From Candidatus Peribacteria bacterium RIFCSPLOWO2_12_FULL_55_15 (GTDB taxonomy: Bacteria; Patescibacteriota; Gracilibacteria; Peribacterales; Peribacteraceae): a stretch of DNA of 38,889 bases. The notes below the pieces were generated by a model. The model saw only the letters and a list, made by a program, of their open reading frames with translations, was not told the origin of the DNA and did no database searches. Numbering within the stretch: the stretch's first letter is position 1; every line of letters begins with the position of its first letter. Shown one piece after another: positions 31,220-35,029 of the stretch. Location: positions 1-38,889 of the forward strand of contig MFYG01000008.1 in assembly GCA_001789045.1 (NCBI GenBank), written 5' to 3'. The translations under genes and the position numbers were made by a program.

Positions 31220-31253
31220 TTCATCATCTTGTAAAGAGTAAATATATTTACTC
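31220..31253 (+). promoter_or_regulatory. Candidate island promoter overlapped by an 18-nt palindrome
   Basis: TTCATC (31220-31225) and TATATT (31243-31248) have a 17-nt spacer. The -10 box sits inside the perfect palindrome GAGTAAATATATTTACTC (31236-31253). This would start a transcript at about 31255 running into the structured RNA and the HTH-RT genes; the palindrome is a natural site for the HTH protein. Both ideas are inference. Confidence 0.45.
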
Positions 31254-31397
31254 CTAGGTAAAGAACAGATAGTCTACTTTCCACTGAGCCTCCCATGAGG
31301 AGGACCGTTCCTTCACAACGAAGTAGTAGAAGGCAGAAACAACGGGGCAGTGATGCCAAGCGAAGCCGAGCCGCTCGTCGCGGGGGCAAGGGGAAGG

Positions 31398-31606
31398 ACT
31401 GAGAAAAGATTAGCAGCGCACCAACGGGATTAACCCTTTGTGCTTACGCTGATGGTTTGATCAATTGTTCTCAGTATGACTCTTAGAAATTAGAAAAAGA
31501 GTTGAGGAAGATTGAAGACGCGACCACACAGGGTTAGTCCTGCTCGGCCTATGAGTCGTTTTCGGGGGTTCGATCATCTGCCGAGCATGGATGTACGACC
31601 CTGGTC
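31398..31606 (+). ncRNA. Structured RNA, candidate retron msr-msd
   Basis: Three successive folds are seen. (1) ACTGAGAA (31398-31405) pairs with TTCTCAGT (31468-31475), enclosing CAGCG/CGCTG, CAC/GTG and GGG/CCC stems. (2) ACTCTT (31479-31484) pairs with AAGAGT (31497-31502). (3) A long hairpin at 31522-31606: GACC/GGTC, AGGGT/ACCCT, CCTGCTCGGC (31539-31548) with GCCGAGCATGG (31580-31590), then ATGA-TCG (31551-31558) with CGATCAT (31571-31577) and a loop TTTTCGGGGGTT. Small hairpins followed by one long hairpin upstream of a retron-type RT is the msr-msd layout. TTAGC at 31410-31414 resembles the branch-G context. I found no convincing a1/a2 pair. Confidence 0.5.
31425..31441 (+). repeat. 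17-nt direct repeat, copy 1
   Basis: CGGGATTAACCCTTTGT, identical to 31834-31850 (409 nt apart). Here it forms the apical GGG/CCC hairpin of the first structured RNA domain. Confidence 0.85.
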
Positions 31607-31647
31607 ATTGGAATTGTAGGAAACTTTAATTTCATACCCCCACTACC

Positions 31648-31842
31648 ATGGATATCAGACATCCCAACAAGCCTACTACTTCTCTTCAGGAACGCCCCCA
31701 ACGACTCGCCCGGGTGTTACGAAGAATCGAAGGAGATATGTGCCATGTCGCTTTGTTCTCCAAGAACATCGTGACGCTGATGAAGATCGTAGCAATCCTC
31801 GTCAAGGCGACAATCAACTTCCTTCGTAACATCCGGGATTAA
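31648..31842 (+). CDS. Possible 64-residue amphipathic peptide upstream of the HTH gene
   Basis: MDIRHPNKPTTSLQERPQRL begins it, then ARVLRRIEGDMC, and a long amphipathic hydrophobic C-terminus (HVALFSKNIVTLMKIVAILVKATINFLRNIRD). The basic head and Lys-studded hydrophobic helix resemble small membrane-active peptides, but no family is recognised. There is no ribosome-binding site and the frame lies between the structured RNA and the HTH gene. Its last two codons and stop are part of the second direct-repeat copy. It could be a toxin-like effector, or merely open sequence within an RNA. Confidence 0.4.
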   Translation: MDIRHPNKPTTSLQERPQRLARVLRRIEGDMCHVALFSKNIVTLMKIVAILVKATINFLRNIRD

Positions 31843-31850
31843 CCCTTTGT
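31834..31850 (+). repeat. 17-nt direct repeat, copy 2
   Basis: CGGGATTAACCCTTTGT ends 15 nt before the HTH start codon, where an autoregulatory operator would be expected. Its core GGGATTAACCC is nearly palindromic. Confidence 0.85.
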
Positions 31851-31865
31851 TTCCCCTTTTCTATC

Positions 31866-32195
31866 ATGCGCATGACCAAGTACCGCCTTCTCCGGCTTCT
31901 GCGTGAAAGTCTCGGACGCAAACAGACTCAGGTTGCAGAAAATCTCGGCATTTCGGCCTGTTACCTTTCGTTAATCGAAAGTGGCAAAAAGGAACTCACG
32001 GCTGAACTGCTTGATGCTCTCTGCGAGGAGTACAACGTGCCTTCCTATCTTTTTTCGTGGAACGAGAAAGACCTCGACAGAACGGCAACACGTAAGGAGC
32101 GGTCTCTGTTGAAACGAATGAACGAGTACCTGGATGAATTGCTTTTACTCATTATGAAGCGCAATGAACGACACGAGGCTAAATCTTCGGTCTGA
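31866..32195 (+). CDS. XRE-family HTH protein of the retron-like operon
   Basis: 109 residues. An HTH_3/XRE domain covers about 8-60 (LLRESLGRKQTQVAENLGISACYLSLIESGKKELTAELLDALCEEYNVP), followed by a charged helical tail (KERSLLKRMNEYLDELLLLIMKRNER). Its end overlaps the reverse transcriptase start by 32 nt in another frame, so the two are surely expressed together. A small HTH protein directly upstream of the RT is the gene arrangement described for HTH-associated (type VI) retrons, where the HTH protein is the presumed accessory or effector. It could also simply be the repressor of the operon. Confidence 0.85.
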   Translation: MRMTKYRLLRLLRESLGRKQTQVAENLGISACYLSLIESGKKELTAELLDALCEEYNVPSYLFSWNEKDLDRTATRKERSLLKRMNEYLDELLLLIMKRNERHEAKSSV

Positions 32196-33123
32196 GAATG
32201 ATGTCGTGAATAGACTGCACCTACGGGACAAGAAGTTCCTACAAACTTTATGCGAAAACAGGGACAGGTATTTCCAAAAGAGGATGCTTAATACCGGCAC
32301 GAAGGAACGCGAGATTTGCATACCACACGATCCATTGGGGCACTTCTTACGGAAGTTCAATGCTGTACTGCGCACACTGCCAGTTCCTCCAGAATGCTAC
32401 GGCGGAGTTCCAGGCCGTTCTGTAAAAGACAACGCCAGCAAGCACACCAACAAACGCTTCGTGATGAATCTCGATATTCAGAACTTTTTCCCATCGGTGA
32501 CGGCCAATCAGGTATTCGAGGTTCTTCGGCGGCACGGCTGCTACAGAGAGACGAGCGAACTTCTGACCAAGCTTGTAATGATCGATAATCGGTTGCCGCA
32601 GGGCTTCAACACCAGCCCCCTGCTGTCGATTCAGGTGCTGACACCGATTATCGAGGAATTGCGTCCGTTGCTTTCTGAACAGGATGCAACGTTTACGGTT
32701 TGGATCGACGATATTGCAATTTCCAGTGACAAATCACCCGAGCCGCTTGTGAAGCGTATCGCAGAGAAATGCCGACGACACGGTTTCCGATTAAATACTG
32801 ATAAGTATCACTGCGGTGAACGTGGGGTGAGCGTCCAAGAAGTGACTGGTGTCGTAATTAACGGAGATGAACTGCGCCCAGCTGGTGGATTCATCAAACA
32901 AACAGAAAAAATGATTCATGTGCTTGTAAAATACGGCTTAGAAGACTTGAACGCAGCATTTGATCGAGAATTTTTAGATACAGCTAAGGCCCAAGCCCAC
33001 ATTGAAGGACGCATAGTTTGGATAGACGAATTCGATTCTGCAAAAGCAGACAAGCTCAAACAACAATTGCACAAACTAGTTGTTCCTGCGTCATTTCGGA
33101 GTGTCCTTGTCACCGCACAATGA
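32164..33123 (+). CDS. Retron-type reverse transcriptase with WIDD active site
   Basis: 319 residues. Palm motifs are FVMNLDIQNFFPSV (catalytic Asp104), RLPQGFNTSP (144-152) and VWIDDIAIS (Asp182-Asp183). Retron hallmarks are NASKH (90-94, the NAxxH of region X) and QEVTGVVIN (VTG at 227-229, region Y). GGVPGRSVKDN matches the HGFxxGKSIxxN block of bacterial retrons. It would copy the msd from a cognate RNA, priming at a branch G. The usual YxDD is WIDD here, and PQGAPTSP is PQGFNTSP. No maturase, integrase or Cas1 domain is fused. DGR-type SQ motif is absent. The C-terminal about 80 residues are probably the RNA-binding thumb. Confidence 0.9.
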   Translation: MNDTRLNLRSENDVVNRLHLRDKKFLQTLCENRDRYFQKRMLNTGTKEREICIPHDPLGHFLRKFNAVLRTLPVPPECYGGVPGRSVKDNASKHTNKRFVMNLDIQNFFPSVTANQVFEVLRRHGCYRETSELLTKLVMIDNRLPQGFNTSPLLSIQVLTPIIEELRPLLSEQDATFTVWIDDIAISSDKSPEPLVKRIAEKCRRHGFRLNTDKYHCGERGVSVQEVTGVVINGDELRPAGGFIKQTEKMIHVLVKYGLEDLNAAFDREFLDTAKAQAHIEGRIVWIDEFDSAKADKLKQQLHKLVVPASFRSVLVTAQ

Positions 33124-33222: not shown

Positions 33223-34191
33223 ATGAATCCCCAGCAATCACTCATCGGCAGTAAATTAAAGATTACCCCACACTATGAGCGTGATTCTGATGTTGTGCTC
33301 TACCACGGGGACCGCTTGGAATTGATGCGATCTCTCCCAGAAAAATCTGTAAAGCTTGTTGTCACTTCACCTCCATATAATATTGGGAAGGAGTACGAAA
33401 AAAGGCAGGATTTAGAAACATATTTAGCAGCACAGGAGGAGACAATAAGAGAATGTGTCAGGGTACTAGCCGATGATGGAAGTATTTGCTGGCAGGTTGG
33501 CAACCACATTGCAAAAGATGGGGAAGTGTTTCCTCTGGACGCGCTGATTTATCAAATTGGGAAGAAGCTAGGTTTAAAACTAAGAAACAGAATTGTTTGG
33601 CATTTTGGGCATGGCCTTCATTGCACTAAGCGTTTCTCTGGCAGGCATGAAACCATTGTCTGGTTTACAAAAAATGATAACTACACATTCAACCTTGATC
33701 CAGTGAGAGTGCCACAGAAGTATCCTGGTAAAAGGAACTATAAGCAGAATGGAAATCACGGCCAGCTTTCATGCAATCCACTTGGAAAGAATCCTGCTGA
33801 TGTATGGGAGATACCTAATGTGAAAAATAATCATCCGGAAAAAACGATCCATCCATGCCAATTCCCCATTGAGCTGATTGAAAGATTGGTTCTTTCCATG
33901 ACGAACGAAAGTGACATTGTGCTTGATCCATACCTTGGTGCTGGCAGTGCTATCTGTGCAGCCGTTCTTCATAATAGAAGGGGATTTGGATCAGATATTA
34001 TGAAAGAGTATTTAGATGTTGCAAAAGAACGTATCGCGGAAGCCGCAAATGGTACTCTTCAGAAGAGAGAGATGGGTAAACCTGTCTACAGGCCAACTGA
34101 AAATACCAAATTAGCACAGATTCCTGAGGAGTTTGAACAGGCAAGGGAAAACCTATTTGGGGCCAGGACGGGCACCGTTGTATTTTCGTAG
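33223..34191 (+). CDS. DNA (cytosine-N4)-type methyltransferase of the RM system
   Basis: 322 residues, beta-class order: motif IV TSPPYN (48-53) comes first and motif I (LDPYLGAGSA, about 234-243) near the C-terminus, with HPCQFPIELIERLV (motif X-like) just before. SPPY rather than DPPY points to m4C, as for the BglII methyltransferase. It should protect the site cut by the neighbouring nuclease. Codon use is visibly more AT-rich than in flanking core genes, suggesting acquisition. The gene is convergent with the nuclease gene and overlaps it tail-to-tail by 39 nt. Confidence 0.92.
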   Translation: MNPQQSLIGSKLKITPHYERDSDVVLYHGDRLELMRSLPEKSVKLVVTSPPYNIGKEYEKRQDLETYLAAQEETIRECVRVLADDGSICWQVGNHIAKDGEVFPLDALIYQIGKKLGLKLRNRIVWHFGHGLHCTKRFSGRHETIVWFTKNDNYTFNLDPVRVPQKYPGKRNYKQNGNHGQLSCNPLGKNPADVWEIPNVKNNHPEKTIHPCQFPIELIERLVLSMTNESDIVLDPYLGAGSAICAAVLHNRRGFGSDIMKEYLDVAKERIAEAANGTLQKREMGKPVYRPTENTKLAQIPEEFEQARENLFGARTGTVVFS

Positions 34192-34824
34192 CTTGATAGA
34201 TTTCCGAGCTGTCTTTCGATCGTTTTTGAAGAGCCCTCGCAACTCCTGACACTTACTTTTCTCAGAGGAAGTAAGTCCGATACCTATGATGTAAACAGGA
34301 ATGTCGATGTTGCTTTCCCCACGGTGTTCTAGGTCTACAAGTAGTTGATCAAAAGATGACACACCAGTAGACATCTCTTTGACAAGCTCTGCACTGGGAA
34401 CCACTTCAATGCCGCATTCGATATATCCAAGATTCTTGAAGATGATCATTTTTGAGAATATGTCGTACCCCATGAAGGCGTACTTTCCGAATTGGATTTC
34501 CAGCCCTACTGTATTTTTGATCCCATCCATTTCTCTGAATCTTCCTTTGCCAAATGCGTGTCGCGGCTCTGCATATTTTTTGCGCTTTCCACTCGCCTTT
34601 TTTGTCCAACCATTTTTGTGTAATGCTACCTTGAGTCCATCATTCATATCTCTTGGAGAAAAAAGCAACTTCCCTTTCATGGTCTTTTCACTGCTTTCTT
34701 TTGTAAGGCATGCAGCTGCATCAAGATGCTTAATAGCATCAATCACTTCTCCGAGCTCGCGCGGATGCTTGCCTTGAATGAACTCTTTGCCATTCTTAAA
34801 CGAATAGGTATTAACGATCTGCAT
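34153..34824 (-). CDS. BglII/BstYI-family type II restriction endonuclease
   Basis: 223 residues from MQIVNTYSFKNGKEFIQGKH. Family blocks are EVIDAIKHLDAAACLTKESSEKT, KGKLLFSPRDMNDGLKVAL, VGLEIQFGKYAFMGYDIFSKMIIF, GIEVVPSAELVKEMSTGVSSFDQLL and PVYIIGIGL. The active site Asp100-x8-Glu109-x-Gln111 has the D, E, Q spacing of BglII. Relatives cut AGATCT or RGATCY, so a GATC-centred hexamer is the likely target. The start overlaps the controller gene by 14 nt, so C and R form one transcript. A longer in-frame start at 34851 is possible. Confidence 0.9.
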   Translation of the reverse strand: MQIVNTYSFKNGKEFIQGKHPRELGEVIDAIKHLDAAACLTKESSEKTMKGKLLFSPRDMNDGLKVALHKNGWTKKASGKRKKYAEPRHAFGKGRFREMDGIKNTVGLEIQFGKYAFMGYDIFSKMIIFKNLGYIECGIEVVPSAELVKEMSTGVSSFDQLLVDLEHRGESNIDIPVYIIGIGLTSSEKSKCQELRGLFKNDRKTARKSIKLRKYNGARPGPK

Positions 34825-35029
34825 CTTTGAAAAACGAAGAAAGAGGGACACTAAGTGCTTTGGAGAGCTTCTCGATGTTTGCCAGCGTAATGTTCTTCTC
34901 GGCTCTTTCGATCATTCCGATATACGTTCGGTGTAATTTGGCTTTCTCGCCCAATTCTTCTTGGGACCAGCCTTTCTCTTGGCGTAATTGCCTAATCTTC
35001 TTCCCGAAGTTTTTTCGCAAGGATGACAC
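34811..35029 (-). CDS. RM controller (C) protein, XRE family
   Basis: 72 residues from GTG. An HTH_3 domain fills the protein: FGKKIRQLRQEKGWSQEELGEKAKLHRTYIGMIERAEKNITLANIEKLSKALSVPLSSFF. Size, position and the overlap with the nuclease gene match controller proteins, which first activate and then repress their own operon so that methylation comes before cutting. Repeated ACTAT motifs upstream (35050-35076) are the likely binding sites. Confidence 0.9.
   Translation of the reverse strand: MSSLRKNFGKKIRQLRQEKGWSQEELGEKAKLHRTYIGMIERAEKNITLANIEKLSKALSVPLSSFFKDADR

Follow-up and report, generated by a model that had tools for sequence, protein, structure and literature searches.

The 38,889-nt stretch of DNA analysed here, referred to below as the window, contains a conserved RNA element of a divergent type VI retron that is not covered by Rfam. 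We assign a probability of about 0.68 to the interpretation that 31398-31606 forms the central portion of a type VI retron ncRNA, with an 85-nt hairpin as the msd, the stem-loops preceding it as the msr, and a small protein encoded downstream as the effector. That this RNA is a type VI retron RNA is very probable, because its hairpin recurs at the equivalent place of a related locus, L021, with compensatory pairs and a common loop. The assignment of the 85-nt hairpin as the msd is plausible, and is based on the order of the elements and their predicted structure.

The type VI gene pair and the small ORF

The window contig belongs to a 0.9-Mb genome in 24 contigs. Many genomes of its class have in-frame TGA, and those of its phylum measure about 0.5-2 Mb, which suggests Patescibacteria. 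The sequence-only reading had taken the genes downstream of the RNA for a retron HTH-RT pair; this context was borne out, and it can be made exact as type VI. The HTH (Xre) gene (31866-32195, plus strand, 109 aa) overlaps with its end the start of the reverse transcriptase gene (32164-33123, plus strand, 319 aa). NAxxH, VTG and xxDD are hallmark motifs of retron reverse transcriptases, and all are present in the RT (N90 A91 H94, V227 T228 G229 and D182 D183). When the RT ORF was compared with 59 PADLOC families, RT_VI was the best match (8.2e-54, 181 bits), with RT_III-A as runner-up at a small margin (8.9e-51). The HTH ORF matched HTH_VI with 1.9e-17, the next-best family reaching 3.7e-08. 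The gene pair of L021 matched RT_VI (1.2e-61) with a clear margin and HTH_VI with 3.4e-19. Despite the small RT margin, the HTH_VI match and the L021 matches settle the assignment, and the gene pair of the window is therefore predicted to encode the HTH protein and RT of a type VI retron or of its immediate kin. Type VI is used here in the sense of the scheme of Mestre et al. 2020, as implemented in PADLOC.

With type VI retrons the window has in common the overlapping HTH_VI/RT_VI genes, the upstream small ORF and the structured RNA before that ORF. It differs from them in its divergent RT, which scores 181 bits against RT_VI compared to 345 bits for L086, and in the start of its small ORF at 31648, which has no visible Shine-Dalgarno sequence. 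The best solved structural relative is Retron-Eco1 (Ec86), whose RT is related in sequence (7v9u, 1.1e-17), but whose effector and RNA differ from those of the window, so that it serves as a remote relative only.

Some neighbouring and distant loci deserve mention in their own right. A restriction-modification system adjoins the retron downstream, consisting of a type II methyltransferase and a REase_II-like gene (33223-34191 and 34153-34851, minus strand). Locus L003, from another Patescibacteria-type genome, encodes a type VI-like HTH and RT in one ORF (reverse complement, frame 1090-2412), an apparent natural fusion. RT_VI-like RTs were also found in genomes with in-frame TGA (L023-L037), where the HTH of the window recognises no upstream HTH genes.

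The RNA does lie upstream of the HTH-RT genes, as had been proposed, but a small ORF that the proposal left out stands between it and the HTH gene. This ORF (31648-31842, plus strand) encodes 64 aa, with a net charge of +7 and a partly amphipathic hydrophobic helix at residues 41-58, near the C terminus. No database family matched the protein. In position and character it resembles its counterparts at other type VI loci; these have a hydrophobic helix in common, in most cases close to the C terminus, and the majority are cationic. Type VI systems have been described as consisting of an RT, a DNA-binding protein and a small auxiliary protein (PMC8541194, citing Mestre et al. 2020), and the small gene is thus of a known component type. 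Judged by its sequence, the 64-codon ORF is a predicted gene for a small auxiliary protein, typical of type VI loci, and by analogy the small cationic protein is probably the effector. Small hydrophobic or amphipathic proteins are also encoded by short ORFs directly before the retron RTs of L008, L009, L018, L074, L076 and L078, with no HTH gene noticed there.

Loci of Pseudomonadota (L068-L071), Bacteroidota plasmids (L052/L083) and phages (L085/L086/L089) are all arranged with a structured region first, followed by the small ORF, HTH and RT. Type VI retrons of Peduoviridae and Mu-like phages (ST147-VIM1phi7.1, P2_2H1, YenM_56.17, MuM16-1) have the gene order of the window, and like it a small protein with a hydrophobic helix and msr-like stem-loops before a larger hairpin. 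The msr-then-msd-like order recognised in the window upstream of the genes recurs in phages and Pseudomonadota: at their type VI loci the RNA is strongly conserved, and small stem-loops (SL1, SL2) are followed by a larger hairpin. Comparison of 16 related phage loci shows hardly any variation in the RNA save at the tip of the large hairpin, where both sequence and length differ between loci; by analogy, this tip behaves as an msd would. In L068, L069 and L070 the hairpin before the small ORF holds the Shine-Dalgarno sequence of that ORF, and a similar phage hairpin covaries. Nucleotide similarity between the RNA of the window and the phage type VI RNAs was without significance. A likeness noticed by eye between GAGAAAAGAU..CGCACCAAC-GGG..CCC in the window and GAGATAA..CGCCACCAATTGGG..CCC in phages gave no significant pairwise score, and we retain it as a lead only.

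Fold of the upstream RNA and its relative in L021

Folding of 31398-31606 yields the two smaller stem-loops and the 85-nt hairpin that the sequence-only reading had described. On the plus strand, the msr-like SL1 (31409-31453, z -2.60) is followed by SL2 (31461-31515), which is weak alone (z -0.64 for 31467-31513), and by the main hairpin (31522-31606, z -2.88), the candidate msd. The latter is built of a helix 31537-31548/31580-31592 on a base 31532-31535/31597-31600, and its apical loop (31561-31572) contains CGGGGG. A further stem-loop, SL3 (31609-31634, z -2.71), forms with a probability of 0.98-0.99 in local contexts. No Rfam match was found in the RNA region at either gathering or E-value thresholds.

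The whole of 31398-31606 folds with z = -2.86 to -2.97. Windows of the same contig fold as well as the 85-nt hairpin in 2.2% of cases (n=790, same size), and as well as the whole region in 4.1% (n=246). Since z is about -2.9 and 2-4% of same-contig windows are its equal, folding energy alone makes a weak case; locally the fold is real but, on energy, only modestly remarkable. In the context 31380-31647 the pair probability is about 0.74 for the SL1 stem and 0.99 for the main hairpin stem, and the latter stays at 0.99 in contexts up to 31250-31700. In the longer context 31250-31865, in which it had been suggested that the RNA be folded, the main hairpin stem still forms but its probability drops to 0.56, and in 31256-31860 it is 0.15. 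SL1 holds the TTAGC motif (31410-31414) that had been put forward as a possible branch-G context; the motif is present as described but was not seen in L021. A stem ACUGAGAA/UUCUCAGU around SL1 (31398/31476) was considered and rejected, with a pair probability of 0.00. The CGGGGG of the apical loop could pair with CCCCC at 31637-31641, immediately 5' of the small ORF's start codon; this pairing gives no covariation signal because both sides are conserved.

With energy alone being weak, the case for the fold is carried by the comparison with L021. This locus, whose RT is 39% identical to that of the window, is the sole close relative found and the only one fit for a pair-by-pair comparison. Among genome contigs, a scan for closer RT relatives yielded only a remote Bradyrhizobium RT, among viral contigs none close was found, and a scan of the entire class plus several others returned L021 as the only close relative. 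A covariance model built from the window hairpin alone, a single sequence, was searched without filters against 17 loci (70.5 kb). The top match was L021 849-921 (19.1 bits, E 0.0095), at the place equivalent to that of the window hairpin, and the next match (14 bits) fell in an unrelated place. Against the upstream region of L021 alone, E was 1.1e-4 and the next match scored 4.7 bits. With default filters the L021 hairpin was missed, so that full scoring was needed, and the antisense strand of the window hairpin itself scores 17.8 bits with the single-sequence model. Because of this antisense score and the default-filter miss, the model score must be read as resting mainly on hairpin shape.

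The 14 stem pairs aligned between the window and L021 (about 844-926) comprise seven identical pairs, one with a one-sided change and six with two-sided changes, and none is broken. Both hairpins carry a CGGGGGUU-like apical loop (UUUUCGGGGGUU; UUCUUCGGGGGGUU) and a GGUU/GACC base with a 3' bulge, and the stretch from SL2 to the hairpin is collinear with L021 at weak significance (p 0.033). The aligned sequences thus show an RNA hairpin conserved by compensatory change. Compensatory changes in homologous loci had been named beforehand as the check on the stems, and in this comparison of the main hairpin they were found.

Ends of the RNA and alternative readings

The ends that the sequence-only reading had given the RNA were not supported, and the strongest structure nearby falls outside them. 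It is a long hairpin in the small ORF (31709-31838, plus strand), with 16-nt arms at 31709-31724 and 31822-31837, a z of -7.57 and a probability of 1.00 in long contexts. The arm duplex is significant in the window (p = 0.001) and in L021 (0.002), and also in L086, L087 and L089. The arms show no significant pairing in L004, L068, L069, L071, L083 and L085, about half of the loci, and the hairpin was rejected as a universal type VI feature. Combined by Fisher's method without the window, arm pairing has a value of 8e-5; related loci entered this test as separate cases, and the regions were partly chosen post hoc. The RNA and small-ORF region is further bracketed by a 17-nt perfect direct repeat, CGGGATTAACCCTTTGT, of which one copy lies in SL1 (31425-31441, plus strand) and the other spans the stop codon of the small ORF (31834-31850, plus strand). 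With up to one mismatch, its 15-nt core GGGATTAACCCTTTG occurs only at these two sites in the 0.9-Mb genome. As a conserved type VI feature the repeat was discarded, since it was not seen in 13 other loci. Upstream of the RNA, a perfect 18-bp palindrome, GAGTAAATATATTTACTC (31236-31253), is a candidate operator or promoter. In L068, L070 and L089 the small ORF is preceded, at a distance of 320-347 nt, by a TTCGCTNNCAGCGAA palindrome, of which L085 has a variant.

The a1/a2 pairing suggested earlier, GGTTT (31455-31459) with AAACT (31621-31625), has a pair probability of 0.00 and was abandoned. By exploration we found a perfect 10-bp complement between GAAGTAGTAG (31320-31329) and CTACTACTTC (31673-31682), both on the plus strand, which is the outermost perfect match of the region. 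Its probability is 0.75 in 31250-31700 and 0.00 once the fold is extended over the remainder of the small ORF (31250-31865). The duplex between 5' leader and ORF start gives p 0.13 in the window. For the corresponding regions of L021, in which several helices are nested at the equivalent place, p is 0.0065. The 10-bp pair as a1/a2 is suggestive only. It would put a2 inside the small ORF, in which the window would differ from type VI retrons. Other type VI loci have a helix of 5-8 bp whose two strands lie, counted from the small ORF, at about -265 to -232 and -64 to -41 (TGTCGCAT/ATGCGACG in L070, TCACGC/GCGTGA in L069, TCGCC/GGCGA in L086, TGTCGTC/GATGACA in L071). This short helix of differing sequence, picked by position among several candidates, fits a1/a2, although such a choice does not amount to statistical proof. 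The retrons of the Peduoviridae and Mu-like phages have their own short a1/a2-type helix (UCGCC/GGCGA and variants), with its strands some 235-265 and 45-60 nt before the small ORF, whereas the window has no equally clear one.

The strength of the hairpin in the small ORF raises the main alternative, namely that 31709-31838 is the true msd, or another essential part of the retron RNA, and that the 85-nt hairpin is a leader or the msr. It is by far the strongest local structure, its arms pair significantly in five loci including the window, and the 17-nt repeat has one copy in SL1 and the other at the 3' end of this hairpin. We nevertheless consider this unlikely, given that the arms are non-significant in about half of the loci, that the choice was partly post hoc, that the repeat was not found in other loci, and that in the phages the conserved RNA with its variable-tip hairpin is found upstream of the small ORF. 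The possibility that the fold merely reflects base composition, and that the match in L021 arose by chance, would be in keeping with the modest z and with an E of 0.0095 over 70.5 kb. It appears very improbable when the top match lies exactly at the syntenic place and shows seven pairs changed on one or both sides, none of them broken, in addition to the common loop, base helix and 3' bulge.

A rather improbable alternative is that the region acts in cis as a leader, regulating translation of the small ORF in the manner of type I toxin mRNAs, and has no role as an RT template. The Shine-Dalgarno sequence held by the hairpin in L068, L069 and L070, the covarying phage hairpin and the potential CGGGGG/CCCCC pairing would all be expected of such a leader; yet a retron-type RT with all hallmarks lies in one unit with the RNA, and the upstream RNA is long and multi-domain, beyond the needs of a leader. 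Leader and RT-template roles could also coexist. About equally improbable is that one and the same molecule serves, in overlapping parts, as RT template RNA and as mRNA of a small toxin-like protein, as might be read from an enclosing helix that reaches into the ORF, from the ORF hairpin being the strongest, and from the repeat that marks SL1 and the end of the ORF. If that were true, reverse transcription or RT binding would directly control effector production.

Proposed function and meaning for type VI retrons

In retrons, the RT binds the RNA, primes DNA synthesis from the branch G of the msr and copies the msd; the resulting RT-RNA/DNA complex restrains an effector, which is released upon phage interference. 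With 31398-31606 as the central part of the retron ncRNA, the transcript would probably begin near the palindrome at 31236-31253 and run through the RNA, the small ORF, the HTH gene and the RT gene. The main hairpin (31522-31606) would be the stretch that the RT copies into DNA, and the stem-loops before it would be the msr. The HTH protein may be a regulator, perhaps acting at the palindrome. Following the general retron pattern, the RT-RNA/DNA complex and the HTH regulator would restrain the small protein, and phage attack would free it, leading to membrane damage. By analogy, the locus is probably an anti-phage system, and we regard it as a candidate for one.

Almost nothing on type VI retrons was found in the open literature searched, and their RNA and effector therefore appear to have been little studied. 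The locus extends type VI retrons to a Patescibacteria-type genome of tiny size. Together with the collected phage loci, it leads to a testable layout: an operator, a structured RNA, a small ORF encoding a hydrophobic helix, an HTH gene and an RT gene. Should the small proteins be the effectors, a small membrane-active peptide would be the means by which type VI retrons kill.
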